Source of the DNA: a virus
IMG/VR virus record: IMGVR_UViG_3300025616_000019
Location: 1-38,187 of that record
DNA length: 38,187 bases
Direction: 5' to 3' (one strand)
Shown here in pieces: positions 5,099 through 30,764 of this stretch. The notes under the pieces were generated by a model. It was not told the origin of the DNA, did not search any database, and worked only from the letters and a program-made list of their open reading frames with translations. The first letter of the stretch is position 1. Every line of letters starts with the position of its first letter. The position numbers were made by a program, and so were the translations under genes.

Positions 5099-8000
5099 AT
5101 GCCTATATATAAAATCCAAGGTCCTGATAACCATATCTATCAATTTGAAGGACCAGAAGATGCTACACAGGCAGAGAAAATAAACTATGCCATGCAGCTG
5201 TATGATAAACGCCAAGCGGAAGTAAAGGCTAAGCAAAACAAAGGCACTGCTGGTGACCTACTTACAGCAGTCAAGCAGGGTGTAGCTCAAATTCCGGGTA
5301 CTATTGCGGGTTTAGCTGATATCCCACTTGAACTTGCTACTGGTAAAAACTACATATCAGAAGCAGGGAATAAGCTAGCTGATATTACTGGTATCCATCC
5401 AGCTGAATATGCTAAAGGATTAGAAGAAGAAAAGTCTGCTAAATACCAAGCCGCACAAGCGGAAGTCAATGCCTTATGGGAAGCCAACAAACAAGGCGCA
5501 GATAATTATGGCGACATAGCTAAATTCTACGCCACCCACCCAGCACTAACAGCTACAAACGTAGCAGAATCAGCACCATCAATGTTACTAGGCGGTGTAG
5601 GTGCTCGCGCTTTAAAAGGTGTTGAAGCATTATCTAAAGGCATTGCTGGAGCATCAGCTCGTGGCGCTATTGGTGAAGGTGCGGTATCAGCAGGGCAGAT
5701 TAATCAACAGCTTGGTGATGAAGGTGGTGGTAGTCGTCAGAAAGCATTGGCGGCTTTAGGTGCTGGTGTTGGTACTGGAGCAATTGCTGGAGCATCAGGT
5801 AAATTAGCTACTCGACTTGGTATCATTGACCCTGAAACATTCCTTGCGGGTCGTGCTAGTAACTTATCCCAAGCTGAACTAAATCAATTCGCAAAAGCGG
5901 CTGACCGTGGGATTGCATCTCGCTTAGGTTTAGGTGTACTTCAAGAAGGTATACTGCAAGAACTTCCTCAATCAGTTCAAGAACAGATGTTCCAGAACTG
6001 GGGTGGTGGTAAACCAATCATGGAAGGCGTTGCCCGTAATGCTATAGAAGGCGCATTAGCAGGTTCTGTCATGGGCGGTGGGTTCAATGCTATCGCTGGC
6101 AATCCAGCTAAAGAACAATTAAAAGCTCAGCAAGACGCACAGGCTGCAGCGGCACAAGAACAACTCGCTCAAGAACATCGACAAGCTACTGGGGTAATGG
6201 AACAGCAACCGATGTTCAACCAAGCGCAAGCACCTGAACCTCAAGGTCCAAGCCAAGCTATTGTTCCTGAACCAACCACTACCCCACCAACTTTTGGCTT
6301 TGGGGCTGAAGGTGAGTTTAATAATGTACCAGCTCCAGAGGTCGCTCCGGGTCAAGAAGATTTATTTACGGGTAAGGGTAAGCCCTCACCTGCTGCGCTT
6401 GCGTCGGTTGAAGCGGCTCGTATACAAGGACTTCCAGCACAAATAGCCGAATTAGCAGCTACTCCTGAAGGTCGCGCTGAACTTAGTTCAAATCGCAAAA
6501 TGTATTTCCCAGACCTTACTACTAAAGAACGTAATGCTAAGATTGTAGAAATCCAACGTGCAGGTGTTGCACCTGTAGAAGCAGCTCCAGTAGTTGAAGG
6601 TACTCTAACACCTGAGTTATTGAAATCATTCGGTATTAAAAGTGGACCTAACTATAAAGCATTGGTTGGAGGAAACCTAGCAAGCCCATCAACTTACAAC
6701 TTGCTTACAACAGCGGCAGCATCCAATACTGAATTTGGTGTTAAAGCCAACCGCATATTAGAAGCATTCCCTCAATACAACCCTAATGCGGTTCAACCTG
6801 ATTTATTTGGAGTTCCTAATGCCCCTCAAGCTCAAGCAACAGAAGCCCCAGCCCCTAGCCAACCAGACCTCTTTGGTGTTCCAGAAAACAATATACAGCC
6901 TCCTGCTAACGAACCACCAGTTGAGCCAAGCGTGGCTGAGCCTATACAACCAGACGAAACCCCGATTGAAAGTACTCCAGAACCTGTCGGGGGAGGAGTG
7001 GGATTACCTAGACAGCCTGCTGTTGGAAGAACTGGACAACCTGCAGTTAGCGTACCAGCACAACCAAGTGCATTAGCTAAACAAGCTGCAGCGACTTTAA
7101 AGAAAGAACCACTTGCTACTGCATGGAGCTACATGAGTGATACTCCATTTGCTAAACTATCTAAGATAGGTAAAGACCGTGTGCGCAGCGCACATGAGTA
7201 TGGGCTTTTAAATCAGGAAGTTGCCGATGGCATTATCGCAACCGAATCTAAAAATGCACGGACAGAAGCGGCTAGTAAAGTAAACAAACCTGAAGCTCCT
7301 CTTGATGAAGCACCAGCACCAGCTAATATAAACCCAGCGCATAAAGCAAATTCTAAGTCAGAATACCAAGAGTATTTAGAAAAGCGCAGTCACGAAGTTC
7401 AAGCGTTAATTGATACTCTATCACCTGCGATTTCTAAAGAACAAGCACGTTCAGAAGTAAAAGAAGCAATAGTTAAATGGAAAAAACGAGCTGAATCTGG
7501 AGAACAGGGGCGGTATGGCGAAGGGGAAATTGAACAAACTGTCGAGTACTTTACTGAGGACCCCCTTGCATACGCTGACGTTATCCCTTTGTCCGCTAAA
7601 GTAGTCGATGCTTTAGATTCAGGCAAGAACAGACTAGAAAATGCTTTAAATGAATTGGCCGAGATTGAGGCTGAAATTAATATTGCTAAATCGCAACATA
7701 ATATGTTGATGTCTGGAAATTATAATAGAGCAATTGATACCTTATTAAATAATGAAATAAGTCCAAAACATGAACAGTTATATCGCGCTATAGCCAATGG
7801 TAATACAGGTAATGTACTAGCATGGATTGCAAAAAATGGCTTTCGTGGGGCGGACCAATTAGTAGCGAAGTTACTGCTTAAAGGAAACATACTACCGAGA
7901 ATAGAATTTAGCACCTCGCCACAAAACAGTATTGGGTCCTATTACGCGGAGTCAGATGCCGTTATTATTGATTCAGGCTATTTCCTACAAGACCATATTA

Positions 8001-11000
8001 ATACTGGCGATTTGATAAAAACAATACTACATGAAATAATCCATTCAGCAACGGTAAACAAGCTATCAAAAGCAATATACATGAGTAGAACACTTCAATC
8101 TGACCCTGACTCACTAAACAGAGCTGATAAACATTATATGCATTCGTCAGAGTATTCAACCGCGCTGAACATCATTGAGGTATTTGATTGGCTTAGAGCG
8201 AACCACCCTAAAACATTCCACCCTGCTATGCATTATGGAGCTACAAACCCATTAGAGATGATGGCTGAATTATTTGTCAATCCTACGTTTTACGAAAGTT
8301 TAGTAGGTATAACCCTTCCAGCAAACTTAGTTAGTAGACAGCCTATAAAAGGAATTCAATGGTTTGTCCGCGCTATTAAACGTTTAGTAGGTCTTGATGC
8401 TGCGCCTGATAGTGCCATAGCTACAATTATGAGCGATACATTAGCGCTAACTAAAAAAAGAGAGTTTGAAAATCGTGTACTTCGCGCTACCCATGAAGAA
8501 ACGCAAGGTAGAACTATACATTACATGCGATACCCACTTCCCGGAAATGGTAATGACGAAAATATAAACCCAGCGCAAATTAGCCCAGCAGCTCAAGCAC
8601 AGGCACAACAAGCTATTAATGCTATGTCAGGCACATTGGTTCAGTCAGCGCCAAAAGTAACTACCACACCGACACAAGTAGCTCAAAACATCGCTACCTC
8701 AATGGTTAAAAATCCTACTGGTGCGTTAGGTATGATTGAGAACATGGCTAATAAGGTTCGTACACTAGCAGTTGATAAGGCAGCGCACTTGTCAGCATCT
8801 ATTCAAGACCATAACAACGGTGCCTTCCGTGATATTAACGGAGTCATGCGTCAAGACATGGGGTTAAGCGCGGCTAATAACATGCAGAACTATATCAATG
8901 CGATATATACACATGGCGGTATTGAAATTCAAGCCGATAAATCTATTCGGGTCAAAACAGAGAAGCACAGCATTGATAATGTATTCCGCGCGGGTCAGAA
9001 ATTAGCTGAACGTATTGGTGTTGAAGATGCTCGTAAGTTAATTACAGGTGCGTTCTACCATTACCGTGCTGAAGCTATATTGAAGTTACCAAGAACTGAG
9101 TGGCCTAAGAACTGGTTAGCTGACCCTCGCATGATTCCAACGCCTACGCAAATCAAAGCGGGTATGGACGCATTTAAACAGTTCCCAGAATTAGAGAAAA
9201 TGCGTACAGAGTTTATTGGTTCTAAAAACCAAATGGTTAAGTTCCTATTTGACGCAGGGTTCTTATCGAAAGTAAAATTCGATGCCTTCCTAGCAGATGA
9301 TTCATACGCTCCTTGGTTACGCCTAAAAGAATACAGCGATACAATTCCCGGACTAGGTAACATGGGTCGTATGGTTGATTTAAGTCAGATGAAGGCATTG
9401 GTCGGTGGCACAGAAGAAGTGAATGACATGCTTGAGAACATGGCACAAATCATTGGTTGGTTTGCACGTTCAGGCATTGCAAATCATACCGCTAACCAAG
9501 CCCTAGGCGTAATGGTTACTATGAATAGCGCTAAGAAATTTAATGTAAGACCGACTAGCGGTGACCCAAGCCATACAGTAATGACTTATGTAGATGGTAA
9601 ACCTACGTTTTGGCAAGTTGATAACCCATACGACTTAGCTGCATTCCAAACAGTTAAAGGGTTAGATAGTTCTGTGATGCGCACTATTGGCAAGGCACTG
9701 GGTACACTACGTGCAGGGATTGTTTTATTCCCAGCATTCCCATTACGCCAAGTTATTATGGACTCGCAACGTGCCTTTGTGCAATCAGGTGTAGAGCGCC
9801 CGTGGGCTTTGGTGGGTAAGATATTTAAAACATTCTTATCAGGTGAAGCATATAGAGCGACGGATAAAGATATTGAAACACTTAGGAAGTATGGTGTAGT
9901 AGGTGGTGTGGACTTTAATGCGCATGATACTACTCGTGGTCGTGCTAAACAGTTTGGACTATCAGAACCCGGAAATTCATTGACTGATAAATGGATGCGT
10001 AGTCCAGCATATAATGCCTTACATACATTAGCGTATAGTGCTGACTTATCTGTGCGTCTTGGTATATTCCGTCAGACTATGGAAGAAACAGGTGATGAAG
10101 TACTTGCGGCAACTCGCGCTCGTGAAATTATTAACTTCCAAAAGGCAGGAACGAGTGAATTAATGCACACGTTAAAACAAACTATCCCGTTCTTGGGTGC
10201 GTACTTACAAGGTATGGATGTGAACTACCGCAGTATGATTGGTCGTGGTAACTCTATGAAGGCACGTAAGGCAGCGGCTGCAGCGTACTGGGGTAATATG
10301 GCTATGTACTCAGGATTAGTAGTTGCCTATACAATGTGCATGTCAGGCGATGATGAGTATGAGGACCAAAAAGGGTTTATTACTGACCGTAATTTCTTAA
10401 TTCCGGGTGTTGGTCTATTGCCAGTACCAACCGATGTAGGCTTCTTAGGTAAAGTTATCCCTGAGCGCATTACGGACTACATACTGCAAGAAGGTACAGC
10501 AGACCCTGAATCAGCAGGTCGTTTACGTTCAGGTATATTGCAAGCGGCAGCGGCAGGCTTCTTACCACCGATGGCAGTGTACGGCATTACTCCAGTATTA
10601 GAAGTTACATTCAACAGAAGTTTCTTCTCTAATATGCCTATTGTTGGGCAGTACTATCAAGGGCTAGAACCATCACAACAGTTCTCCCCTAGTACAAGTG
10701 GATTTGCAAAATCAATCGGTGCGGCTATTAACCAATCCCCATTACAAATCGATTACATACTAAACGCAATTGGTGGTACTTCTGCAGGTGCGCTACTTCA
10801 GTTAGCTGATGTAATGGCAGGTGATGGCAAGATGGCGAGCGATAAGTATCCTATTATCTCTACATTCCAAATGAAGACTGTTGGTGGTCGATACGCTGAA
10901 GAATATTATGCAGTTAGAGAATTAACTGAACAGGCATATAAAACACAACAAGCAATGGCTGAGCGTGGTGATGAAACTGGTCGTGAAGAATATTTGGCTA

Positions 11001-11209
11001 GACCTGAAATACAAGCAAGGATTCAAGCTAGACCGGGCGTAGAAAACATTCACAACATGCTAAATAATGTACAGCACCAACGTAAGCTGATTGAGAACTC
11101 TGACTTAGACCCACAAGCTAAGCGCGATGCTGTGAATGCACTGCTCGCTGATGTAGAGGCTAACCTTAAAGAGTTTGGAATACGTCAAACTAGAAGTGAA
11201 ATAGAATAA
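5099..11209 (+). CDS. Giant ejection-type internal virion protein with zinc-peptidase motif
   Basis: 2,036 residues, the largest gene here. The N-terminus (YKIQGPDNHIYQFEGPEDAT) is typical of phage large polyvalent or internal virion proteins. Residues 155-240 are Gly/Ala-rich and amphipathic; residues about 380-680 are a Pro/Ala/Gln-rich linker with repeated PDLFGVP. A zincin motif HEIIH lies at 978-982, and a possible third ligand is E1057 in MMAELF. Residues 1,180-1,900 resemble the conserved C-terminal region of phage large proteins, with LPLRQ-like and VPTDVGFLGKVIPERI segments and one hydrophobic helix near 1,730. By analogy with T7-type internal proteins it should be packaged and injected. 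The 44-base gap before it contains TATAAT at 5,062-5,067; GAGGG is the ribosome site. Confidence 0.75.
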   Translation: MPIYKIQGPDNHIYQFEGPEDATQAEKINYAMQLYDKRQAEVKAKQNKGTAGDLLTAVKQGVAQIPGTIAGLADIPLELATGKNYISEAGNKLADITGIHPAEYAKGLEEEKSAKYQAAQAEVNALWEANKQGADNYGDIAKFYATHPALTATNVAESAPSMLLGGVGARALKGVEALSKGIAGASARGAIGEGAVSAGQINQQLGDEGGGSRQKALAALGAGVGTGAIAGASGKLATRLGIIDPETFLAGRASNLSQAELNQFAKAADRGIASRLGLGVLQEGILQELPQSVQEQMFQNWGGGKPIMEGVARNAIEGALAGSVMGGGFNAIAGNPAKEQLKAQQDAQAAAAQEQLAQEHRQATGVMEQQPMFNQAQAPEPQGPSQAIVPEPTTTPPTFGFGAEGEFNNVPAPEVAPGQEDLFTGKGKPSPAALASVEAARIQGLPAQIAELAATPEGRAELSSNRKMYFPDLTTKERNAKIVEIQRAGVAPVEAAPVVEGTLTPELLKSFGIKSGPNYKALVGGNLASPSTYNLLTTAAASNTEFGVKANRILEAFPQYNPNAVQPDLFGVPNAPQAQATEAPAPSQPDLFGVPENNIQPPANEPPVEPSVAEPIQPDETPIESTPEPVGGGVGLPRQPAVGRTGQPAVSVPAQPSALAKQAAATLKKEPLATAWSYMSDTPFAKLSKIGKDRVRSAHEYGLLNQEVADGIIATESKNARTEAASKVNKPEAPLDEAPAPANINPAHKANSKSEYQEYLEKRSHEVQALIDTLSPAISKEQARSEVKEAIVKWKKRAESGEQGRYGEGEIEQTVEYFTEDPLAYADVIPLSAKVVDALDSGKNRLENALNELAEIEAEINIAKSQHNMLMSGNYNRAIDTLLNNEISPKHEQLYRAIANGNTGNVLAWIAKNGFRGADQLVAKLLLKGNILPRIEFSTSPQNSIGSYYAESDAVIIDSGYFLQDHINTGDLIKTILHEIIHSATVNKLSKAIYMSRTLQSDPDSLNRADKHYMHSSEYSTALNIIEVFDWLRANHPKTFHPAMHYGATNPLEMMAELFVNPTFYESLVGITLPANLVSRQPIKGIQWFVRAIKRLVGLDAAPDSAIATIMSDTLALTKKREFENRVLRATHEETQGRTIHYMRYPLPGNGNDENINPAQISPAAQAQAQQAINAMSGTLVQSAPKVTTTPTQVAQNIATSMVKNPTGALGMIENMANKVRTLAVDKAAHLSASIQDHNNGAFRDINGVMRQDMGLSAANNMQNYINAIYTHGGIEIQADKSIRVKTEKHSIDNVFRAGQKLAERIGVEDARKLITGAFYHYRAEAILKLPRTEWPKNWLADPRMIPTPTQIKAGMDAFKQFPELEKMRTEFIGSKNQMVKFLFDAGFLSKVKFDAFLADDSYAPWLRLKEYSDTIPGLGNMGRMVDLSQMKALVGGTEEVNDMLENMAQIIGWFARSGIANHTANQALGVMVTMNSAKKFNVRPTSGDPSHTVMTYVDGKPTFWQVDNPYDLAAFQTVKGLDSSVMRTIGKALGTLRAGIVLFPAFPLRQVIMDSQRAFVQSGVERPWALVGKIFKTFLSGEAYRATDKDIETLRKYGVVGGVDFNAHDTTRGRAKQFGLSEPGNSLTDKWMRSPAYNALHTLAYSADLSVRLGIFRQTMEETGDEVLAATRAREIINFQKAGTSELMHTLKQTIPFLGAYLQGMDVNYRSMIGRGNSMKARKAAAAAYWGNMAMYSGLVVAYTMCMSGDDEYEDQKGFITDRNFLIPGVGLLPVPTDVGFLGKVIPERITDYILQEGTADPESAGRLRSGILQAAAAGFLPPMAVYGITPVLEVTFNRSFFSNMPIVGQYYQGLEPSQQFSPSTSGFAKSIGAAINQSPLQIDYILNAIGGTSAGALLQLADVMAGDGKMASDKYPIISTFQMKTVGGRYAEEYYAVRELTEQAYKTQQAMAERGDETGREEYLARPEIQARIQARPGVENIHNMLNNVQHQRKLIENSDLDPQAKRDAVNALLADVEANLKEFGIRQTRSEIE

Positions 11210-11351: not shown

Positions 11352-11567
11352 TTATCTAGTACGCCAGACCATTACCCCTAAGTAACCATCTTCAATTGCA
11401 TTCTTAGCTTCTATCTCTATTTGGATACTACGTGCTACTCGTTTAAGCAGCGATTTAGTTTCCGAAGTCTTTAGTGTAGGAACGAAAAGCCCATCTTTCA
11501 CATCGAGGTACTCGATGGGCACTTCCATTTCAATACCATCAGGCAGGGGTAGTATCATCTGCCACAT
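11352..11567 (-). CDS. Small hypothetical phage protein
   Basis: 71 residues, overlapping the end of the primase-helicase gene by 29 bases. It has a short acidic beta-like N-terminus (ILPLPDGIEMEVPIEYLDV) and a helix with mixed charge (LLKRVARSIQIEIEAKNAI). No clear ribosome site; the ATG at 11,558 is an alternative start. It is the last gene of the minus-strand block. No family recognised. Confidence 0.5.
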   Translation of the reverse strand: MWQMILPLPDGIEMEVPIEYLDVKDGLFVPTLKTSETKSLLKRVARSIQIEIEAKNAIEDGYLGVMVWRTR

Positions 11568-14481
11568 CAGTTACATCTAAGTCATGCCACATATCCATAT
11601 CAAGTCCAACAGCATTAGTGTCGAACTCAATCGCTCGTGTAGAACCTGCAACAACACCAGTACCTACAGTCAATCGTTTAGATACTTGGAACCCACCTGA
11701 CAATGTAAGCAAGCTATTGAATGAGAACTGCCTAGCTACACAATAATCACGCATGGCTTTTGCTACGATATACAACTTGCCAGTATCCGGCTCGTATCGC
11801 GCTACGACCTTGTTGATATTCCTGTTCTTAGGCTGTGCATATAAGCCGTTCGCGTCAGGTAGTGAATCAACCACCAAGATATAGCTATGGTTTTCTACCA
11901 AGAAGTCTGATAACAATGCATCGAACTTAGTAATACTTTGCTCAACTTCATTACGCATTTTATCAATCTGAGTAATCATCACTTCAATGTTGTTGTTAAT
12001 ATCCCAATCATGTAGCCCTAGTTCTTTAGCGATAAATGCCATTGTATATGCACCTGCCACACTAGCTGACCAGTTACGTTCTTTACTGGTGAAGTTAAAC
12101 TTCGCATCCATCTTACGTTGAACTTGAGTAACCATTGCTTCTAGTTTGTCCTCATTCTCTACAAGCCATGATGCTAACAAATGTCCAGCCACACCAAAGT
12201 TCGTTTGCATGAGTGGGAATATCGTATCTGCTGTTAGCTTAGGAAGGACAGGTGTACCACGCATATCGAACTCAAACAGACGCATGTTCTCACCTTCGGC
12301 AGAAGCTTTTAGTGAACCTAACTTATCACGCATTGCGGCATTGGCTGTAGCAAAGGTATTGAGGTTCCATGTAGTATTGTTTACACGCTCTACACCAGTA
12401 ATAGTACTGCGGTTCTTACCACGCCCCATCGTAGCCATATAAACAATGTCACTACAAACTTCAGGTGACTTGTTGGTAAACTCATCTAGGAATAATGACA
12501 TGCTATTAAACACACCCATACGATTAACCGTTGCATTGATTGTATCGTGTGGCATAGATAGCATCTCGCGTGGGTTACCCCATACGCTATTACAGAACAT
12601 ACCAAGCGTTGTTTTACCAATCCCTGACTCATCGCTGATTAGGGTGGTAAGCATGCCGTGATGGTTGATTGCTTTCATTAGGGGCGAGCTTAGCGCCATG
12701 AAGAACACAAACTGGTGTACCTCAAAGCCTGCTTGGTCGTATACATCTGCAACCTTACGCCATGATGCCATGTCGCCTTCCATACGGAACATGTTTTGGT
12801 AATTGGTTGTAGCGTTTGATGGTGGGCAATTCCTGATGCCTGCCTTAGAGTACTCACGCGCTCCTAAAATAAATGACTTGTCTTCTTGCCAACCCATTTG
12901 GGTTCTTGCTTTCTCTTCATTTTGCATTCTTTCTAACTCCTTTGTTGATGCTATTAAATATCGGCTAAGTTCGGCTAGTGCCTTATCCTCAGCAGCGACT
13001 CCTTGACCACATATTATTTCGCGGAGTTTATCTCTTGACCCTACTGCCTTAAGTGGGATATTGAAAACTCTTACTCCGTCTAATGGCAAGTGTAGTCGGC
13101 ATGCCAAAACCTGACCTTCTTCAGGGTCATATAATCTAGCATAAGCATAGAAGTCGTTTTGATATAGAAGCACATCTTCTGTGGTTCCATCTTCTAGCCT
13201 AGTGCTTTTGTACAGCCCACCATTCTGCCCACGTATGTAAGGGCTAGGTGGTACTGGTATTGTTACTTTACTTTGGCTCTTATAGAAAGCCGCTAATGAT
13301 GCGTCAATCTTGGCTATGTCTACTGAATCAATTGGGTCTAGGTCGGCACTCTCATGATGCTCAACTGGTGCTAACTCTACTACTTCTTTTATAACAGGTG
13401 CCACAATAATAGGCTCAACTGATACAGTAACAGGTGCTACCGATGCAATAATCTCATTACCTAATTGGATAGGGCTAGTAATCTTACCGAAGCTAGGGCA
13501 GTTACTACATATACCTGAACGCATACCATCAAAGGTTTTGCATGTGTAAGGACCTTTAGTTTGGTCAGCCTTAGCTACAGTAGAATCAAAGTCATAGTCA
13601 GGGTGGTCCCTTGAAGCCGCATGGATTGCTATTGTACTATCTGAACACACTTGCGCAACGGACAGTACGGCTCGCCACATGGGTTCATCAATGTTCGCTT
13701 GGTCAACAACAGCCTCTAATAGTTGCTGACACCCAGCACCTGCCTGACTTCGTATCATGATTTTTCTAAATGATGACATTGAATTGCCAAGCAATGCTTT
13801 TGTTACTGCGCTTATTTCTTTCTTAGTAGGTGTTCCCGGAAGTTTGATTACTTGCGAAGCGGCAAGTGATGCGTAGGCTACTTCGATTAATCCCTTGAAC
13901 CCGTCAAACATTACCTCGCCACCTGTCATTACGATAGCTACAGTTGATGACGGATTGAAGCGGTAGTTCTGTGTATTAGGTATGCGTAAAATACGTGCCG
14001 CATCTGCGGTACATGCAGGGTCAATACGCAAGCCATCAGACAAGCATAATGTCTTTAACATATCGGCCACAGGTTGCCATGTGTCCTTATCAACAGCTTC
14101 GTCTAGCACCCAGTACACGTGCCAACCATTGCCTGAATCTACAACCGTTGGGCGTGGAAAAGAATGCCGTTCGCAAAACTGCGATATAGCTACAATGCCA
14201 TCATCTTTGTTGGCGTAGTCTTTAAGGGGGTCTTTGTCTTTACAATCTACGTCAAGCCAAAAGGCTTTGAGCCACGCCACATTACCTTGTGTCCGTGTTG
14301 AGGCATCTTTGAAAGTTGCCATTGCGTAGTATGCGTTTTTACCTGCCTGTGATGCAGCTAGTCCAGCCTTAACAAGTTCGTTTTTATCGTTGTGAAACGT
14401 CTGTACGATTGCTTTGTCGTGAATGGTCGTGAGGCAGTAGGTCCCAATAGAAGGCACTACGCTATTAATTAGCGTATCCAT
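11539..14481 (-). CDS. Primase-helicase: AEP-type primase fused to a DUF927-like AAA+ helicase
   Basis: 980 residues. The N-terminal part carries the archaeo-eukaryotic primase signature: FWLDVDCKD with D77 and D79, SGNGWHVYW with H121, and RIDPACTAD with D154 followed by ARILRIPNT. A Cys cluster (C314, C325, C328) follows the primase part and may bind zinc. After a variable linker comes an ATPase of the DUF927/superfamily 3-like type, with Walker A ESGIGKTT (G620-T625) and Walker B SLFLDEF (D666, E667). It should make primers and unwind DNA at the phage fork. No separate DnaB or T7 gp4-like helicase is seen in the window, so this fusion is the likely replicative helicase. Confidence 0.85.
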   Translation of the reverse strand: MDTLINSVVPSIGTYCLTTIHDKAIVQTFHNDKNELVKAGLAASQAGKNAYYAMATFKDASTRTQGNVAWLKAFWLDVDCKDKDPLKDYANKDDGIVAISQFCERHSFPRPTVVDSGNGWHVYWVLDEAVDKDTWQPVADMLKTLCLSDGLRIDPACTADAARILRIPNTQNYRFNPSSTVAIVMTGGEVMFDGFKGLIEVAYASLAASQVIKLPGTPTKKEISAVTKALLGNSMSSFRKIMIRSQAGAGCQQLLEAVVDQANIDEPMWRAVLSVAQVCSDSTIAIHAASRDHPDYDFDSTVAKADQTKGPYTCKTFDGMRSGICSNCPSFGKITSPIQLGNEIIASVAPVTVSVEPIIVAPVIKEVVELAPVEHHESADLDPIDSVDIAKIDASLAAFYKSQSKVTIPVPPSPYIRGQNGGLYKSTRLEDGTTEDVLLYQNDFYAYARLYDPEEGQVLACRLHLPLDGVRVFNIPLKAVGSRDKLREIICGQGVAAEDKALAELSRYLIASTKELERMQNEEKARTQMGWQEDKSFILGAREYSKAGIRNCPPSNATTNYQNMFRMEGDMASWRKVADVYDQAGFEVHQFVFFMALSSPLMKAINHHGMLTTLISDESGIGKTTLGMFCNSVWGNPREMLSMPHDTINATVNRMGVFNSMSLFLDEFTNKSPEVCSDIVYMATMGRGKNRSTITGVERVNNTTWNLNTFATANAAMRDKLGSLKASAEGENMRLFEFDMRGTPVLPKLTADTIFPLMQTNFGVAGHLLASWLVENEDKLEAMVTQVQRKMDAKFNFTSKERNWSASVAGAYTMAFIAKELGLHDWDINNNIEVMITQIDKMRNEVEQSITKFDALLSDFLVENHSYILVVDSLPDANGLYAQPKNRNINKVVARYEPDTGKLYIVAKAMRDYCVARQFSFNSLLTLSGGFQVSKRLTVGTGVVAGSTRAIEFDTNAVGLDMDMWHDLDVTDVADDTTPA

Positions 14482-19043: not shown

Positions 19044-19675
19044 TAGCTTGTAAACCCCCTTAATATTTCACGAACTTGCTCGCATGTTATTGCACGTGCA
19101 AACCTATAATTAATATGTTCATCTTCCCTAATCCATTTTGCCATTGCTCCCACTGACGCTGCGTTTCTATTAATCTTTACATTGTCCACCGACTCAATAA
19201 TGTCACAATAAAATTCAACCTCTATTACATCCTCTGCATGCGTATACCTTTTTGGCGGTCGTACATAGGGCGTTAGTTTTGCAATCTCTTTTGTACTTAG
19301 TATCTTAGGTTCTGTTCTAGCAACGTTTACCTTAAGCGCTTTCGCTTTCTTTTCTTTCTGTATCATTACTTCTATTTCATCTGACCAAAAATGTTGTGGC
19401 GCTGAGAGAACTGCGTCGTGTTTTTCTTGGCTTACGGGTTGCTCCCCTGTGCTTCGCCCATACCCCATTGATACGTTATGTAATGCCGTTTGTCCTTGGT
19501 CTATGTTGTGTTGAATCATCGCAACGATAGCAATTGCATCTGCATCGTCATACCCATTGTCTTCATAGCAAGCTGTTCCACTATTTACTAGGTAATTAGA
19601 ACGTCTTCTGCAAGAGTTATCGCTTTTCCTATATAGTCCAAACCCCTGTGCATTACCACTACTTAGCGTTGCCAT
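19043..19675 (-). CDS. Hypothetical protein between DNA polymerase and RecB-like nuclease
   Basis: 210 residues from ATG 19,675, which overlaps the polymerase end by 17 bases; a GTG eight codons upstream is in frame but less likely. Basic middle (KEKKAKALKVNVAR), a segment ILSTKEIAKLTPYVRPPKRY that looks like a helix-turn with proline wing, and a C-terminal helical part (VGAMAKWIREDEHINYRFAR). The last third could be a small DNA-binding fold but no family is recognised. Translationally coupled to the polymerase. Confidence 0.6.
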   Translation of the reverse strand: MATLSSGNAQGFGLYRKSDNSCRRRSNYLVNSGTACYEDNGYDDADAIAIVAMIQHNIDQGQTALHNVSMGYGRSTGEQPVSQEKHDAVLSAPQHFWSDEIEVMIQKEKKAKALKVNVARTEPKILSTKEIAKLTPYVRPPKRYTHAEDVIEVEFYCDIIESVDNVKINRNAASVGAMAKWIREDEHINYRFARAITCEQVREILRGFTS

Positions 19676-21518
19676 ATCGTTTACCTGAACCAACTTCACA
19701 GTCTAGAGGTAGGCCATTAGCCCAGCTCGGTGGAGTACGCATTACCTGTGTAATGAAAGCCTTAGCTTCCTCTACTTGTTCATCAGGCACTATACATATT
19801 ACCTCATCGTGTACCAACCCAGCAACTGTGTATTTCTTAGCGATATTCATCGTATGCTCTGCCATAATGTCACGTGCAAGGCTCTGTGTCGTGCGTTGGA
19901 ATACTTTGGCACCATAGACCTTATCACGCATTGTAGCTCTGCCACGGCGCACCTCGTAGTGCCACTCGTCACCCTTGAGTCCTGTATCGACTGTCAGCTT
20001 AGGATAGGGTAATGACAACCCGTTTGGTTTAACAATGCCTGCCGTACCTAGTACGGGTAAGAACCCAAATACTGTATGCGACTCATCATTCTTAATCCAT
20101 TCCAGTACCTGACCGCCTTCCTTCCACGCATCAACTACATTGGTATTCTTATCACGGTACAAGTCTTTCAATCGCTCTGCTTCGTTAGCCGTAACAGTTG
20201 TCTTGCCCTTGCTTTGGATACGGATAGTTTCCCGTAGCTTCAATGAGCCTGTGCCGTAAATCAAACTCAAGCAACATACCTTAGCAATGAACCGTTCGAT
20301 ACTGTCCTTACCAATCTTATCGTAAGCAATGTTAAACGCCTCTGATGCAAACACACGATACAAATCCATGCCATCTACAATCTGCTGTATCGCATTGTGC
20401 TGACCTGCCAACCACATACCCAAGCGCAACTCAATGTTACTCAAGTCAGCTACTACTAACTGATGCCCTGCAGGTGCCATGATTGATTTACGTAGCGTTG
20501 AACCACGTGGTAAGTTCTGTGGGTTAGTATCAAAGCCTGACCAACGATGCGTAATCATTGCACCTGAGTACTTCAATGAAAACGGATACGCACCACGAGC
20601 CGCGATATTAGCAAATGCCTCAGTACGTTTCTCTCCAATCGTAGACTTAGCCGCAAGCCTAGTGGTCACCATCGTAGCAATCATTGGGTCTTCACTATCC
20701 ATCAGGTCAGTAAACTCTTCGTCAGTCTTAGCGAATGCCCATGCTTCTTTCTTGGTCTTGTCGCTCACCTTAGTAGGCGGTTCAACACCTCGTGACTTGA
20801 GTAACTCTGCAAACTTATCGTTGCTCATTAGCTGTGTCTTAAGCGAGTCTTCATTCTTAACACCTAGCAAGTTCATCAGGGTCAGTAATGAGCCACGCTT
20901 CTCAGCACGGATATTCATCAAATCATCTACTAACATCTTTTCATCAAGCAATAGTTGTGGCTCCGCGAACATACGGATAGTCAGGTCGATAACTCTTAGC
21001 TCGCTCTTAGGGAAGTTAGGAAGCATCTTGTTGAACACGTTGTAGCAAATCTCCACGTCATGCTTACAGTAAATGCCATACTCTTCCATCTCTAGTGGGT
21101 GGAAGTCAGCACGGTGTTTACCAAGCGCTGTGAGGACCGCTGTGCCCTTATCTTCTTCTCCGTATACCTTTGCTAGGTTTGCTAGTGATGACGACTCCAT
21201 AAGCCCGTGTATAGCGTTAGCCATACTCATAGTATCTAAGTAGCCTGCGGGTTTAATTCCGAATTGCCAGTTCAAGATAGCCGCATCAAATGCAGTGTTC
21301 TGAGCTAGTAATAGGTGGTCACCCCAAGGTAATGATGCTAGGTGTTTCTTGATGGTTGCCTTAGTGCCTGTTACCCATTCAATCGGACCGTCATTAACCT
21401 TAGTAGCTACACCAATCGTTTCAAACAATGGGCTACGTACATACTCTTCTGTGGTTATCTTAGAGAGGCTGAAGTCTTTATCGTAGTAGCTTTCAAAATC
21501 CAAGCATATGATATTCAT
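19659..21518 (-). CDS. Family A DNA polymerase with 3'-5' exonuclease (T7 gp5/PolA-like)
   Basis: 619 residues. Exonuclease motifs: CLDFES (D7, E9), NTAFDAAIL (D78) and YCKHDVEICYN (D154). Polymerase motifs: A, VVADLSNIELRL with D358 and E363; B, R409-x3-K413-x7-Y421-G422; C, VHDEV with H570, D571, E572. All catalytic residues are present, so it should be the replicative polymerase. Position 417, equal to E. coli Pol I Phe762 and T7 Tyr526, is leucine. Such Leu variants are common among environmental phage polymerases. Start at ATG 21,518 overlaps the preceding stop (ATGA). Confidence 0.95.
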   Translation of the reverse strand: MNIICLDFESYYDKDFSLSKITTEEYVRSPLFETIGVATKVNDGPIEWVTGTKATIKKHLASLPWGDHLLLAQNTAFDAAILNWQFGIKPAGYLDTMSMANAIHGLMESSSLANLAKVYGEEDKGTAVLTALGKHRADFHPLEMEEYGIYCKHDVEICYNVFNKMLPNFPKSELRVIDLTIRMFAEPQLLLDEKMLVDDLMNIRAEKRGSLLTLMNLLGVKNEDSLKTQLMSNDKFAELLKSRGVEPPTKVSDKTKKEAWAFAKTDEEFTDLMDSEDPMIATMVTTRLAAKSTIGEKRTEAFANIAARGAYPFSLKYSGAMITHRWSGFDTNPQNLPRGSTLRKSIMAPAGHQLVVADLSNIELRLGMWLAGQHNAIQQIVDGMDLYRVFASEAFNIAYDKIGKDSIERFIAKVCCLSLIYGTGSLKLRETIRIQSKGKTTVTANEAERLKDLYRDKNTNVVDAWKEGGQVLEWIKNDESHTVFGFLPVLGTAGIVKPNGLSLPYPKLTVDTGLKGDEWHYEVRRGRATMRDKVYGAKVFQRTTQSLARDIMAEHTMNIAKKYTVAGLVHDEVICIVPDEQVEEAKAFITQVMRTPPSWANGLPLDCEVGSGKRYGNAK

Positions 21519-25704: not shown

Positions 25705-25896
25705 TTACCCACCATAGTAATCAATCAATACAAGCAATGCTTTCTTTACTTTCTTATCCTGTTTAACATCATCAGGGTGCGTAGATACAAATTTATTCTC
25801 TACTAAGTCTAAGCTTTGTTTAAGGTATCCAAGTACCACAGAGTCAAGTACGGTATACATTGGGTCGTTATCATCTAAATCTATACTGATTTTCAT
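25705..25896 (-). CDS. Small phage protein, paralogue of the gene at 26,236
   Basis: 63 residues starting after GGAGAAACGAA. MKISIDLDDNDPMYTVLDSV, a helix (VVLGYLKQSLDLVENK), then HPDDVKQDKKVKKALLVLID. It lines up along its length with the 65-residue gene at 26,236: MK(I/L)SI, VLDSVVL/LMDTIVL, LK, H-x-DD, DK-x-V-x-KAL, Y-(Y/F)-G. Function unknown. Confidence 0.65.
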   Translation of the reverse strand: MKISIDLDDNDPMYTVLDSVVLGYLKQSLDLVENKFVSTHPDDVKQDKKVKKALLVLIDYYGG

Positions 25897-26243
25897 TTCG
25901 TTTCTCCATTAGGGATTACTCGGTAGAACTTCACATACTTCCATTCCAAGTTGCCTGCCAATTCTTTGAATGACTTAGATGCCCATGTTTCAACTTCAAT
26001 CAATTCGTAGGGGCTAACAGGGCACTCAGGACTTTCATCGTGCTTCTTCCATTCGTAATGCTCGCCTGTCGGACCGTTCTGACCTATCACATCTATGCGC
26101 CCCTCGTCCCAATCGGGGTCAGGGTCACGTTCGGTTGGTTCTTTCTTGCGAAAGATTAAATCAAATCTATCCTCAGCTTCTTTAGAGAATACGCCTTTAG
26201 TTTGTATCTTATCCCCTGTGATTTCATTGCGGTTCTTAATCAT
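25893..26243 (-). CDS. Hypothetical protein between two paralogues
   Basis: 116 residues from ATG 26,243 (the ORF could use GTG one codon earlier). Charged N-terminus, an Asp/Glu/Pro-rich middle (EPTERDPDPDWDEGRIDV) and a C-terminal part with WKYVKFYRVIPNGETK. No family recognised. It overlaps both neighbours by a few bases, so all three are coupled. Confidence 0.55.
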   Translation of the reverse strand: MIKNRNEITGDKIQTKGVFSKEAEDRFDLIFRKKEPTERDPDPDWDEGRIDVIGQNGPTGEHYEWKKHDESPECPVSPYELIEVETWASKSFKELAGNLEWKYVKFYRVIPNGETK

Positions 26244-26433
26244 CACTTACTCCAAAGTATTTAATGAGTATGCCCAATGCTTTAATTACTTCCTTATCTG
26301 ACTCAGCATCGTCAGCATGTCTTGAACTCCATTTGTGCATATCGTCACGTGTGCTTTTTAGGTGTGCTAACACGATAGTATCCATCAACTCATACACCGC
26401 GCCATCATCATCAAACTCTATACTTAATTTCAT
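26236..26433 (-). CDS. Small phage protein, paralogue of the gene at 25,705
   Basis: 65 residues after AAGGAGTTACTAGC. MKLSIEFDDDGAVYELMDTI, then HADDAESDKEVIKALGILI and KYFG. The two paralogues differ at most positions but keep hydrophobic spacing and the HxDD and DKxVxKAL motifs. Possibly an acidic helical regulator; no function known. Confidence 0.65.
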   Translation of the reverse strand: MKLSIEFDDDGAVYELMDTIVLAHLKSTRDDMHKWSSRHADDAESDKEVIKALGILIKYFGVSDD

Positions 26434-26774
26434 GCTAGTAACTCCTTATAAATTCTCCCAGTTTTGGGAGCTATGTTTGTGTAACCCATACGAAACGCTA
26501 ATTTAAAATCATCTGCTAATCCTTCGGGTAGGATAATAGGGTCAGTCATATCACCTGCATCATCAGGTTCGATATCGTAGATTGAGTAGTATGTAGCTTT
26601 ACCTGACCCATACTTGAATATCCGCTTATCCCTTGCTAGTGCCGCTAATCCTAACTGCACGTTAGACCTAGAGAAGCCTTGACGGATTAAGCTAACCGAT
26701 GTTCTGTTAGCAAGTCTTATCTCCCCTACTAATTGTTCACGCACCGCCATTATCTCAGGGGTTACATAAGCCAT
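26430..26774 (-). CDS. Possible winged-helix regulator
   Basis: 114 residues, start with AGGAGCATATGT. Residues 3-60 resemble a winged helix: helix REQLVGEIRLANRTS, helix VSLIRQGFSRSNVQLGLAAL, and the wing ARDKRIFKYGSGKATYYSI. The C-terminal 45 residues (GLADDFKLAFRMGY) are unknown. DNA-binding is inferred from the pattern only. Confidence 0.5.
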   Translation of the reverse strand: MAYVTPEIMAVREQLVGEIRLANRTSVSLIRQGFSRSNVQLGLAALARDKRIFKYGSGKATYYSIYDIEPDDAGDMTDPIILPEGLADDFKLAFRMGYTNIAPKTGRIYKELLA

Positions 26775-26987: not shown

Positions 26988-28175
26988 TCACAAAGTTAAT
27001 TCTTTTACATTAATTGTTGTACCTACTGGAATGTTAGGTGTAGGTTTGTTATTGACTACCAACCATAGCACTGGAATACCATCCCAATTACCCACATCAG
27101 CAGAATAAAACTCACCATCTGTAATAACCACCGCGCATACATAATCATCACGTTTCTCCTCCTTATCTATCCACTCAGTAATACAAGATGGGCTAGTACC
27201 CCCACCACCAATAGGCTTAACAGCGTTAGCTAGTGTGTCCATAGCACCGCGCTCAAAACTATCCACGCCTACTACCTTACTACCCCACCATGCGATGTCC
27301 AAGCCACTAGGGTTAATCTCATTACATAGGTGTTGCATATGCCCTAAGAACACAGACAGCGTTGTGTCACCGATAGACCCTGACGTATCGCCTGCAATAA
27401 GAACTCTGCCTATGGCTTCGCTATATGGCGCTGGGATATACAAATCATATGCTACATAAGTACGGTGTGGTCTACGCCATGTTTGTTTGTCAGCCCCACA
27501 ACATACAGTCTTAACAAACTCTGACACGTAGCTACGCCAATCAACTTCGGGTACTAGCATCTCTGTAATGGTACGTGGCATATTAGCCCCGATGTTCCCT
27601 GCCAATGTAGCTTGACGCAAGGCATTGTCTACCTGTACTTCAATCTCCTTAGCATCAGCTTCACTAATACTCTCGGCTTCTTCCCAATCATGTTGGTCGT
27701 GTCCTTGCTCAGGCGAGTCCTTAGCTTCTTTCATCAAGTCATCAAACACAGCCTTAACATTCCATACATCAGGGTCAGCGTACTTAGGCATATAGATACC
27801 GCCCTCAACGAACTTAAGCCCTTGCTTGCCGTATAGGTACTGGGTGTTAATGACTGCATCGCAAGCGATGTTTGCAAGCATTGGGTTTAACTTCCATAAA
27901 CTCTGCCATACGAACAGATGTCTAAACATCTTATGGAAGTTCTCATGTAGTACGATAAACAATACCTGTGGTAGCACTAAGTCCTCAATGAATGTACGGC
28001 TATATATCTCATTCAGTCCATCAGTCGCGGCTGTCTTGCATTCATGGTCGTCATCTACAATCGCAGTAGTACCCATCATGACAATACCTGCCATCCACTT
28101 CCAATCAGGGCTGTTCATGATACTAACCTTGACCTTGCTAATCATCTGTTCTGCATTTAGTCCATCTGTTCTCAT
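26988..28175 (-). CDS. Metallopeptidase-like domain plus VWA domain protein (DUF2201-type)
   Basis: 395 residues. The N-terminal part has HENFHKMFRH (H77-E78-x-x-H81) and NIACDAVIN with D106, matching the zinc-binding core of the DUF2201 putative metallopeptidase. The C-terminal part is a von Willebrand A-like domain with a metal-ion-dependent adhesion site: DTSGS at 263-267, GGGGTSP at 323-329, and VVITDGEF with D353. This architecture is the partner protein of MoxR-family AAA+ ATPases (CobT-, ViaA-like). The matching ATPase is encoded at 29,664. Start after TTGGAGTATTTAAA. Confidence 0.85.
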   Translation of the reverse strand: MRTDGLNAEQMISKVKVSIMNSPDWKWMAGIVMMGTTAIVDDDHECKTAATDGLNEIYSRTFIEDLVLPQVLFIVLHENFHKMFRHLFVWQSLWKLNPMLANIACDAVINTQYLYGKQGLKFVEGGIYMPKYADPDVWNVKAVFDDLMKEAKDSPEQGHDQHDWEEAESISEADAKEIEVQVDNALRQATLAGNIGANMPRTITEMLVPEVDWRSYVSEFVKTVCCGADKQTWRRPHRTYVAYDLYIPAPYSEAIGRVLIAGDTSGSIGDTTLSVFLGHMQHLCNEINPSGLDIAWWGSKVVGVDSFERGAMDTLANAVKPIGGGGTSPSCITEWIDKEEKRDDYVCAVVITDGEFYSADVGNWDGIPVLWLVVNNKPTPNIPVGTTINVKELTL

Positions 28176-28408
28176 TTTAAATACTCCAATCCATTAGCTG
28201 TTAAATGATAGCGCCATGCCCCATTTACATCTGTCGTGTACGCAGGGTTTGTGCCATGAATTCCTACTAGATACCCTTTCCGCGCCATGTAGCCAAAGTC
28301 AATCTTGCCATTAAGCCCTGCTTGTTGTACTTCACGCCATGTCACATCATCACGAGTACCAAATCGTATTAACCATTCGGTAAGATGCTCTTTAATATAC
28401 TCTTTCAT
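28172..28408 (-). CDS. Small cassette protein, paralogue 3 (HGT/LEYLK family)
   Basis: 78 residues: LTEWLIRFGTRDDVTWREVQ, a variable middle, then the ending YHLTANGLEYLK. It shares the frame L-x-E-(W/M)-L-(V/I)-(K/R)-x-GT, an E-(V/I) helix and the L-T-x-x-(G/A)-(L/V)-x-YLK ending with the genes at 28,405 and 29,464. The fold may be a winged helix. The final LEYLK codons (TTGGAGTATTTAAAATGA) are also the next gene's ribosome site. Confidence 0.65.
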   Translation of the reverse strand: MKEYIKEHLTEWLIRFGTRDDVTWREVQQAGLNGKIDFGYMARKGYLVGIHGTNPAYTTDVNGAWRYHLTANGLEYLK

Positions 28409-28617
28409 TTTAAATACTCCAATGCTTTATCGGTCAATCGAAACTGTAAGTGTGTAAGCACACTGCTATCTTTACGCTCTATGTACTTATGGTGTTCGTT
28501 ATGCTGTATGAGTACATAGTCTTGTATCTCATGCCAATCAACCCACTCAGTTCCATGCTTAACTAACATCTCAGTAAGCACAGCTTTATGGCTAGCAACA
28601 CGGTCAAAGTCTTCCAT
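28405..28617 (-). CDS. Small cassette protein, paralogue 2
   Basis: 70 residues: VLTEMLVKHGTEWVDWHEIQ, a middle part with DYVLIQHNEHHKYIERKD, and the ending FRLTDKALEYLK. Same family as the genes at 28,172 and 29,464. Start has no clear ribosome site; it lies one base after the DUF3150 stop and probably depends on coupling. Function unknown. Confidence 0.65.
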   Translation of the reverse strand: MEDFDRVASHKAVLTEMLVKHGTEWVDWHEIQDYVLIQHNEHHKYIERKDSSVLTHLQFRLTDKALEYLK

Positions 28618-28618
28618 A

Positions 28619-29464
28619 TCAAAACCAATCGGCGATTACGCCATCTACTTTAAGTTTGACTTCATCACGTGCACCATCACGCCTAATCTCGCTAGCATCA
28701 ACGCCTAGTAATGCTGACTCTAACCCTGCACGTGCCTTCTCTAGCTTAGGGTCGTTAGTAACATTTAAGCGCTTGAGCATATCGCATAGGTCAACAGCAT
28801 TGTCCACCATTGTATCACGGAATATCCTAGCCTTGCCATCGTCATCATAACCAAGCCTGTCACTCATATGTTTAAGCGTGTCATGCAAGCGTGTCCATAA
28901 GTCTTGATTAACACTTGCCACTCGTTCGTTGAACATGGCTTCATACTCTTTCTTCATGTCATCAACAATCTCATTGGTCGCATCAATCCTAAAGTCACCC
29001 GTAGTAGGCAATGGTAGAAAGGTAACCTTAAACCTAAACTTATCCTTGATGTCATTGACTGATGGGAACTCATTACGGTCAAACAATGCGCCTAACTGAA
29101 ATGCCTGTGCGCTAATCAAGTTAGGGTAATCACGTAGGAACTCAGTAACAAGCGTTACAAACGTGACTTCACATTCATTAACCCATTGTTTTAACTCAAA
29201 GAATTGAGCCATAGGGGTTAGGCGTTGTCCGCTATTAGACCAAGGCAATGTCATCTCATAAAATTCATTACGCTTGATAGCAACAAAGTCAGTAACCTTT
29301 TTAAGGTTGTTCATGCCTGCTAGTAGGTTCTTATTAACGCGAGCCGCATCATCGCTGTGCGCTCCCTTACTTAGCTTAACTTCTTTAGACGCAACCTTAT
29401 CTAGCTTACGTGCCGCCCATGTTGATATGTTTAATTCTACTAATACTGCATTCATTGTAGTCAT
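28619..29464 (-). CDS. DUF3150-like protein of the AAA+/VWA cassette
   Basis: 281 residues; start after AAGGAG overlapping the previous stop by one base. Features are the N-terminal ELNISTWAARKLDK, the spacing VNKNLLAGMNNLKKVTDF, TLPWSNSGQRLTP, and a helical, charged remainder. This pattern fits the DUF3150 family of phages and mobile elements, which lies between a MoxR-like ATPase and a VWA/metallopeptidase gene in such cassettes. No catalytic motif is visible, so it may be a substrate adaptor or structural partner. Confidence 0.65.
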   Translation of the reverse strand: MTTMNAVLVELNISTWAARKLDKVASKEVKLSKGAHSDDAARVNKNLLAGMNNLKKVTDFVAIKRNEFYEMTLPWSNSGQRLTPMAQFFELKQWVNECEVTFVTLVTEFLRDYPNLISAQAFQLGALFDRNEFPSVNDIKDKFRFKVTFLPLPTTGDFRIDATNEIVDDMKKEYEAMFNERVASVNQDLWTRLHDTLKHMSDRLGYDDDGKARIFRDTMVDNAVDLCDMLKRLNVTNDPKLEKARAGLESALLGVDASEIRRDGARDEVKLKVDGVIADWF

Positions 29465-29664
29465 TATCTTTTCTCCTTAAGGTATGTAACACCTTTTTGT
29501 GTTAGTAAGTAAATCCCGTCATCTGTTGCTATCAAATCTAATCGCTGTGCCTTGAACCATGTTGCATCGTCAACTATCATATTAATTTCATTCCCTTTAA
29601 CTTTGCTAGTGCCGTGCTTAACTAGCCACTCCATTAGAAATGGTATCATCAGTCCTCTGCTCAT
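29464..29664 (-). CDS. Small cassette protein, paralogue 1
   Basis: 66 residues: FLMEWLVKHGTSKVKGNEI, NMIVDDATWFKAQRLDLIAT, and the end YLLTQKGVTYLKEKR. It shares the EWLVKHGT and LT-x-x-G-(L/V)-x-YLK signatures with the two small genes at 28,172 and 28,405 but is placed directly after the ATPase. It overlaps the ATPase stop by one base. Confidence 0.65.
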   Translation of the reverse strand: MSRGLMIPFLMEWLVKHGTSKVKGNEINMIVDDATWFKAQRLDLIATDDGIYLLTQKGVTYLKEKR

Positions 29665-30764
29665 TACAAAATCCAGCTATTTTCTATTGCGAAGGCTCGC
29701 ACCTGTTGGTTCTTAAGCGCGATGTTCTTAATCTTCTCAGTAGATGTGACTGTCTTTATCCACGTGCTAGTTACTTCTTTAGGTAATCGTAGGAAGTAAG
29801 TCGCAAACGCATCCATGTTGCTCGCATCTATGTACTGCAATGACTTGAACGTAATCATTAGCTGAGCAGGCGCACTCTTAGGCACACGCGCATTACTAGG
29901 GTTAGTCACAATGTCATCCAGTGCAGGCAGGTCGTAGCCCATCGCAAACATAGCGCTCATGTCTAACGCTGCTTTCATGCCTACTGTACCAATCAATGCT
30001 TTAGTCAGTAACGCCTCACCCGTTACATCCATGTTGCGTGTTTGATGTGATGCCTTCTCCAACGTACGCATACAAACGTATGCCATGTTGTTATGCTGTG
30101 GGTGGTAGATGTAATGAAAAATACCTTGCCCATCTTTGTGCATACGTGCATCAAACTCCGTGTCCTTGTATGAATGGAATATCGCAGGATTTTGCTTAGC
30201 CCATGTCACAACAAGTTCATGTACGTCATTGTTGATAGCCCAATCTATCCACTCATCTTGAGTAGACTTACGCATAGGTATTCTAGTAACGCGACTATTT
30301 GTATGCCCATTAGTTCTATCCCCTACGCCATCTGTCTGAAAGTTGGTCGTACCAAAAACGATACTACCTTGTGGTAACTTGTAGTCACCAACCATCTGCT
30401 CAAGCATTAGGCGGTTCATCATTAGCTTCACGTAGTCAGAACCCTTGAACACCTCATCAAGCATGATAACTTTAGGCTTCTTGTCGTCAGTACCTAGCCA
30501 TATCTCGTTGATGAATGCTTTGGTCACTTGTCTTTCATGGTCAGGCATTGATAGCGCGATGTCAGGTATGTCCTTTAATGGCACGTCAATATAGATGTAG
30601 TCATAAGCATCACCCATTTGTTTTTTCAACGTACCAAGAATGGCACTCTTACCAATTCCGGGTTCTCCCTCAACGACATAGGTTACCTTTGTACCATTAG
30701 CCTTGATTAATAAAGCAGCTTCCGTGTGGTTCACGGCAAAGCTGTATGCGTTTGTTGTACTCAT
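29664..30764 (-). CDS. MoxR-like AAA+ ATPase (CobS-like)
   Basis: 366 residues from ATG 30,764 (AAAGGAGAACAAAA; an earlier in-frame ATG lies upstream). Walker A GEPGIGKS (33-40), Walker B VIMLDEV (D103, E104), sensor 1 FGTTN (138-141 region) and a conserved Arg in NSRVTRI (R158) are all in place. It is a MoxR-family AAA+ ATPase that should remodel a partner in an ATP-dependent way; the VWA protein at 26,988 is the expected partner, with the DUF3150-like protein between them. Role in the phage is unknown. Confidence 0.85.
   Translation of the reverse strand: MSTTNAYSFAVNHTEAALLIKANGTKVTYVVEGEPGIGKSAILGTLKKQMGDAYDYIYIDVPLKDIPDIALSMPDHERQVTKAFINEIWLGTDDKKPKVIMLDEVFKGSDYVKLMMNRLMLEQMVGDYKLPQGSIVFGTTNFQTDGVGDRTNGHTNSRVTRIPMRKSTQDEWIDWAINNDVHELVVTWAKQNPAIFHSYKDTEFDARMHKDGQGIFHYIYHPQHNNMAYVCMRTLEKASHQTRNMDVTGEALLTKALIGTVGMKAALDMSAMFAMGYDLPALDDIVTNPSNARVPKSAPAQLMITFKSLQYIDASNMDAFATYFLRLPKEVTSTWIKTVTSTEKIKNIALKNQQVRAFAIENSWIL

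Follow-up and report, generated by a model that had tools for sequence, protein, structure and literature searches.

Pairs of MoxR and VWA proteins are chaperone/co-chaperone machines, which in known cases comprise extra components (PMC7159879). In phages, cobST-type AAA+/VWA pairs are widespread, occurring in haloarchaeal and bacterial tailed viruses and in T4-like cyanophages, and were proposed to hijack the CobN of the host (PMC8651126); the role of such cobST-like MoxR/VWA pairs is described as uncertain (PMC11288001). The cobST-type pair is the nearest described phage counterpart of the unit reported here, which lies in a virus fragment of 38,187 bases (the whole stretch of DNA analyzed, hereafter the window). 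In both, a tailed phage encodes a MoxR-clade ATPase next to a VWA/MIDAS protein, but the window additionally encodes a DUF3150 component and an array of small, predicted winged-helix paralogs. The MoxR-vWA ternary conflict systems (VMAP, iSTAND, FtsH; PMC7159879) likewise combine MoxR and VWA with a third component, and small adaptor domains are a theme among them; however, their third components and effectors were not found here. The initial annotation named CobS/CobT, RavA/ViaA and conflict systems as known settings of MoxR/VWA pairs. A match to known defence models was not obtained: a PADLOC search of all six cassette proteins gave no match at 0.01, and a Pfam scan of the same proteins gave no effector domain above threshold. 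Altogether, the cassette is best filed as the phage MoxR-VWA kind plus a newly found small-protein family.

The six genes form a run on the (-) strand from position 30764 down to 26988 in the order MoxR, S1, DUF3150-like, S2, S3 and VWA (Table 1), confirming the positions and the strand initially annotated. Neighbouring genes overlap by 1-4 bases, the sole exception being a 1-base gap between the DUF3150-like gene and S2. In a promoter scan, sites were no commoner than in shuffles.

Table 1. Genes of the cassette in the window and the evidence for their assignment.
Feature	Position	Strand	Evidence
MoxR-clade AAA+ ATPase, 366 aa	29664..30764	-	phrog_1297, Walker A/B, midasin profile match
S1, predicted winged-helix small protein, 66 aa, type A	29464..29664	-	paralogy to S2 and S3; located in MoxR/DUF3150 gap
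DUF3150-like protein, 281 aa, third part of the core	28619..29464	-	MinM2 homology; Pfam DUF3150 below cut-off
S2, predicted winged-helix small protein, 70 aa, type B	28405..28617	-	type-B profile, 1.7e-17
S3, predicted winged-helix small protein, 78 aa	28172..28408	-	type-B profile, 1.4e-8; AlphaFold2 model
DUF2201 metallopeptidase/VWA protein, 395 aa	26988..28175	-	Pfam DUF2201_N and DUF2201; invariant motifs

Just downstream of the VWA gene, a second pair of small paralogs of 65 and 63 aa was observed (26236-26433 and 25705-25896, both (-); Z ~27), which is unrelated to S1-S3; relatives of the 26236-26433 gene are present after VWA in the contigs L007 and L015. A 114-aa protein encoded in the same region (26430-26774, (-)) resembles by eye a winged-helix or helix-turn-helix protein and showed no match in Pfam or PHROG. 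Elsewhere in the window, a 2036-aa protein (5099-11209, (+)) comprises an LPD38 domain (1e-19) and shows a weak match to a virion-RNA-polymerase PHROG (6e-8), while the adjoining genes of 435, 136, 475 and 595 aa gave no PHROG match. The primase/helicase and the DNA polymerase (11539-14481 and 19659-21518, (-)) are distant kin of those of Pseudomonas phage Rollin and Rhizobium TM3_14A-type phages (25-35% identity), and the polymerase is also distantly related to that of Pseudomonas phage KPP25. This kinship gives a hint at the affiliation of the window.

Judged by sequence comparison, the identities of the ATPase and the VWA protein are firm. The ATPase belongs to the PHROG ATPase family phrog_1297 with an E-value of 1.2e-40, its alignment shows a conserved Walker A motif (GEPGxGKS/T), Walker B motif and GTTN region, and the best solved relative of its profile in the PDB is midasin (4e-13). 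The VWA protein matched Pfam DUF2201_N (7.4e-20) and DUF2201 (1.3e-9), each above the cut-off. Its N-terminal half is formed by the HExxH metallopeptidase domain, and in an alignment of 11 sequences the HExxH (HENFH), the MIDAS (D-x-S-G-S), the TDG and the GGGGT motifs were all invariant. The zinc, MIDAS and Walker motifs look intact, as had been noted before. The label "HNH endonuclease" is carried by phrog_1314, by RefSeq entries such as NC_055735 (55250-56380) and by the DUF2201 protein of Vibrio phage 1.238.A in RefSeq. The members found here, however, belong to the DUF2201 HExxH/VWA type, and the naming of phrog_1314 looks like a propagated misannotation.

For the third large protein, the name DUF3150-like was sustained by homology and context, but not by its own Pfam score, which at 0.0023 and 17.7 bits lies under the curated cut-off of 24.9 bits for DUF3150 (PF11348). 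In tblastn, it matched the annotated DUF3150 protein of Synechococcus phage MinM2 at 6e-18, and one of its relatives matched the MinM2 protein at 2e-25. Because the latter is encoded in the same MoxR/VWA context, this homology supports the DUF3150 identity. The same match was found for the two Planktothrix phage records Pag-Yong1 and Pra-JY27, which are identical in length. The structure model of the window protein is mostly helical and showed no matching fold in the PDB, and among the papers of the library searched none mentioned DUF3150.

A wider DUF3150 search of viral contigs yielded 104 relatives, 80 of which were kept as loci. MoxR, DUF3150 and VWA occur together in ~70 phage loci, in four gene orders and often with gaps of just 10-60 bases. 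The unit was found almost exclusively in viral contigs; a genome scan with DUF3150 returned one MAG contig only, and no cellular reservoir was seen. A scan of viral contigs with the single MoxR sequence detected no relative, although MoxR adjoins every VWA match, so this result reflects a failure of the search pattern and not biology. Related pairs without the complete unit were also observed. In Schitoviridae (e.g. Vibrio phage 1.238.A), homologs of the ATPase (22.8% identity) and of the HExxH/VWA protein (29.8%) are encoded side by side, but the one cassette read out comprises neither DUF3150 nor a small paralog array. In Rhizobium phages whose DNA polymerase is related to that of the window, MoxR and VWA lie near each other, the small genes are unrelated, and no recognisable DUF3150 was present in the examples read out.

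The initial annotation described the three small proteins as paralogs, and this assignment is well founded. Pairwise Smith-Waterman scores of S1, S2 and S3 ranged from 52 to 56 compared to 23-24 +- 4.5 for shuffles, exceeding them by some 6-7 standard deviations, and none of 2,000 shuffles reached these scores. Profiles of the A and B types, made from relatives, recovered each other's members with E-values of 1e-5 to ~0.1, and the type-B profile that scored S2 was built from relatives alone. On these alignments, S1, S2 and S3 are true paralogs of one family, the ends of which are conserved (LxEWLxxxGT in the first helix, LTxxGxxYL in the last). No family in Pfam, PHROGs, NCBIfam or PADLOC covers them, and a tblastn search of phage isolates with S2 gave no match.

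Structure modelling and profile searches predict that the small proteins are stand-alone winged-helix domains. The AlphaFold2 model of S3, based on an 18-sequence alignment, reached a pLDDT of 85 and a pTM of 0.71 with the order H-H-H-E-E-H, as expected for winged helices. The leading Foldseek matches of this model belong mostly to the MarR family (best E 0.06, probability up to 0.94, none below 0.001), and a 30-sequence profile of the small family matched two winged helices, the ribosomal protein eS10 (4e-5) and PadR (5e-5). Compared to MarR, PadR and eS10, the small proteins are stand-alone domains of 65-95 aa without extended dimerisation helices, many of them are acidic, and they are arrayed beside an ATPase.

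The VWA gene was found at 64-77% identity in ten IMG/VR contigs, while the next group showed ~30%. Nine of these ten contigs comprise the small family; in the tenth, L008, unrelated small genes of 107 and 121 aa fill the cassette gaps. Type A was present in 9/9 contigs and exclusively in the MoxR/DUF3150 gap. Type B sits between DUF3150 and VWA and is missing in L003, L006 and L009, and a third type (C) precedes type A in L001 and L007. With a profile made from this first group alone, further copies were detected in L064 and L072, and in L061 and L062 following the VWA gene. L064 comprises about ten full copies, placed before, within and after the cassette, and the copy number per related IMG/VR phage ranges from 1 to about 10. 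Other small genes were observed around these cassettes as well: in several lineages MoxR is directly preceded by a gene whose product is helix-turn-helix-like and ends in a basic tail, as in L010 (4409-4846) and L011 (4226-4687), the same type of gene lies before MoxR in L012 (1514-1984) and L005 (3127-3633), and L072 carries near-duplicate glycine/aspartate-rich small genes (5285-5518 and 5735-6004) in the MoxR/DUF3150 gap.

In 38 whole contigs, 41 non-redundant copies of the small family were counted, several of which belonged to the searching profile, so that their E-values are not independent. Of these copies, 37 lie in the cassette or within 2.5 kb of it, compared to an approximate random expectation of ~9, which assumes a fixed cassette span of 8.9 kb per contig. 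The remaining four, which were no members of the profile, lie together as a second array behind the primase gene of G022/G023, a single lineage, ~16 kb from the cassette. The association with the cassette is thereby supported, but a fixed position between MoxR and VWA is not, since copies also precede MoxR, follow VWA or lie behind the primase. Neither is the family a constant part of the cassette: it is optional and absent from most of the ~70 loci. Since the core unit is conserved, often without the small genes, the small family can be regarded as a lineage-specific accessory, and since most cassettes do without it, many of them packed nearly gapless, the machine works without the winged-helix family. 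The wide spread of the core unit suggests that it predates the small family.

The MinM2 cassette, along with that of the Planktothrix phages Pag-Yong1 and Pra-JY27, shows the same layout as the window, with MoxR, a 90-aa gene, DUF3150, tandem genes of 112, 111 and 115 aa, and VWA. The tandem trio are mutual paralogs (scores of 131-253 compared to 27 +- 5), but no relation to the small family of the window was detectable in sequence. MinM2 furthermore differs from the window by a DUF3150 of only 25% identity and by small proteins of 90-115 aa, and its cassette is not annotated as a system. That a like layout recurs with another family of mini-proteins argues for a benefit of a small duplicating partner to the MoxR/DUF3150/VWA machine, although this is one case and may be a coincidence.

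A comparison of closely related contigs revealed that the small genes diverge faster than their neighbours. Among L005, L007 and L015, the large proteins were 95-100% identical (DUF3150 99-100%), compared to 81-87% for type A and 71% for type B. Between L005 and L015, MoxR and DUF3150 each showed 14 base differences, compared to 31 in the 210 bases of type A; 23 of these 31 fall into codons 19-36 and none into codons 1-17 (Fisher 7e-10). A central excess of changes in type A was found in 6/6 close pairs (Fisher 7e-10 to 0.013), a pattern drawn from few, related contigs and clear in type A only. For L007 and L015, the centre of type A showed 11.2 nonsynonymous and 2.8 synonymous changes, while the rest of the gene showed 1 and 8, which suggests selection for change in the centre. 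Pooled nonsynonymous rates lay below synonymous ones, and given this, the few related contigs and the restriction to type A, relaxed constraint together with recombination could also yield the central divergence. Compared to L005, L001 shares 93% of the DNA of the first helix and only 41% of the centre, while compared to L003, the closer relative by core genes, the shared amounts are 78% and 61%. Since the sharing differs by segment, the small genes look mosaic. A diversity-generating retroelement is an unlikely source of the variation, since the reverse transcriptase domain RVT_1 was found in 0/15 contigs (partly fragments) and the changes are not limited to adenine.

Taken together, a candidate role of the small winged-helix proteins is that of exchangeable adaptors of a CobST/MoxR-VWA-like, ATP-driven remodelling machine, a reading that we favour tentatively and with less than even confidence. 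The machine would consist of the MoxR AAA+ ring, the VWA/metallopeptidase co-chaperone and the helical DUF3150 protein as a third subunit. By analogy with studied MoxR-VWA pairs (PMC7159879), the ATPase ring and the VWA protein may capture and remodel a client. The conserved first and last helices of the small proteins would serve for docking, either to the machine or among the small proteins themselves, while their variable centre would contact the substrate and bring clients; duplication or exchange of the small genes could then redirect one constant machine to different proteins of the host or of competitors. Adaptors that present targets, as put forward in the initial annotation, fit the contrast between variable small and constant large proteins. 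The run of gene overlaps, the clustering at the cassette, the changes in copy number, the local fast divergence and the MinM2 parallel support this adaptor reading, from which we infer physical interaction, substrate choice and an arms-race target. The array beside the primase and the absence of the family from most cassettes count against it.

These last two observations could also be explained if the small proteins were independent accessory genes of an early operon, such as inhibitors acting on functions of the host or of competitors, which duplicate and build up in permissive gaps and for which the cassette is simply a tolerant landing place with no physical link to the ATPase. Unrelated small genes sharing the gaps, as in L008 and between ATPase and VWA in the Rhizobium phages, would fit this as well. 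We consider it somewhat unlikely, since the clustering exceeds the random expectation as described above, type A always occupies one gap in nine contigs, and MinM2 shows a like layout with an unrelated trio. The predicted fold, with its MarR-family and PadR matches, raises the further alternative that the small proteins are MarR/PadR-like DNA-binding regulators of phage or host transcription, or that they bring the machine to DNA. Type A is indeed basic (pI 9.1-9.6), and its third helix contains a K and an R that are invariant; across the family, however, the median net charge is -0.5 and many members are acidic (pI 4.4-6), a dimerisation region beyond ~70 residues is absent, and the other best profile match, eS10, is a ribosome-borne winged helix. 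In addition, variation is concentrated in the stretch from the first to the third helix, in type A around helix 2. The region of the recognition helix, the third in type A, varies comparatively little, as would suit contact with a protein better than the reading of DNA. We give this regulator reading a low probability, somewhat below that of independent accessory genes.

Least probable, in our view, is a phage cobaltochelatase of the CobST type, which would act with the CobN of the host and raise cobalamin for nucleotide synthesis, the small proteins being minor stabilising subunits. The wide occurrence of phage cobST pairs with their proposed hijacking of CobN, and the AAA+ and MIDAS-bearing VWA proteins in common, would be in line with such an enzyme. 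CobN (PF02514) was found in 0/27 contigs, a weak counterargument since the host could supply it, and the large chain of ribonucleotide reductase in just 2/27 contigs, which are partly fragments. Moreover, half of the VWA protein is taken up by the metallopeptidase domain, and subunits of a metabolic enzyme would not be expected to diversify fast.

For the study of phage MoxR-VWA cassettes, DUF3150 as a third conserved subunit and the fast-varying, adaptor-like family provide handles for finding the substrate: if the small proteins are variable adaptors, their binding partners should be the clients of the machine. The cassette would then be a phage analogue of adaptor-programmed unfoldases, in which the adaptors diversify much faster than the motor. 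The far-reaching version, in which expanding and recombining mini winged-helix adaptors re-aim a constant AAA+/VWA/DUF3150 machine, the cyanophage arrangement has a separate origin, and the whole belongs to a general arms-race strategy of phages, is a doubtful one at present. If true, pairing a constant motor with an array of diversifying adaptors would be a strategy general to phages in their contest with hosts or rival phages.
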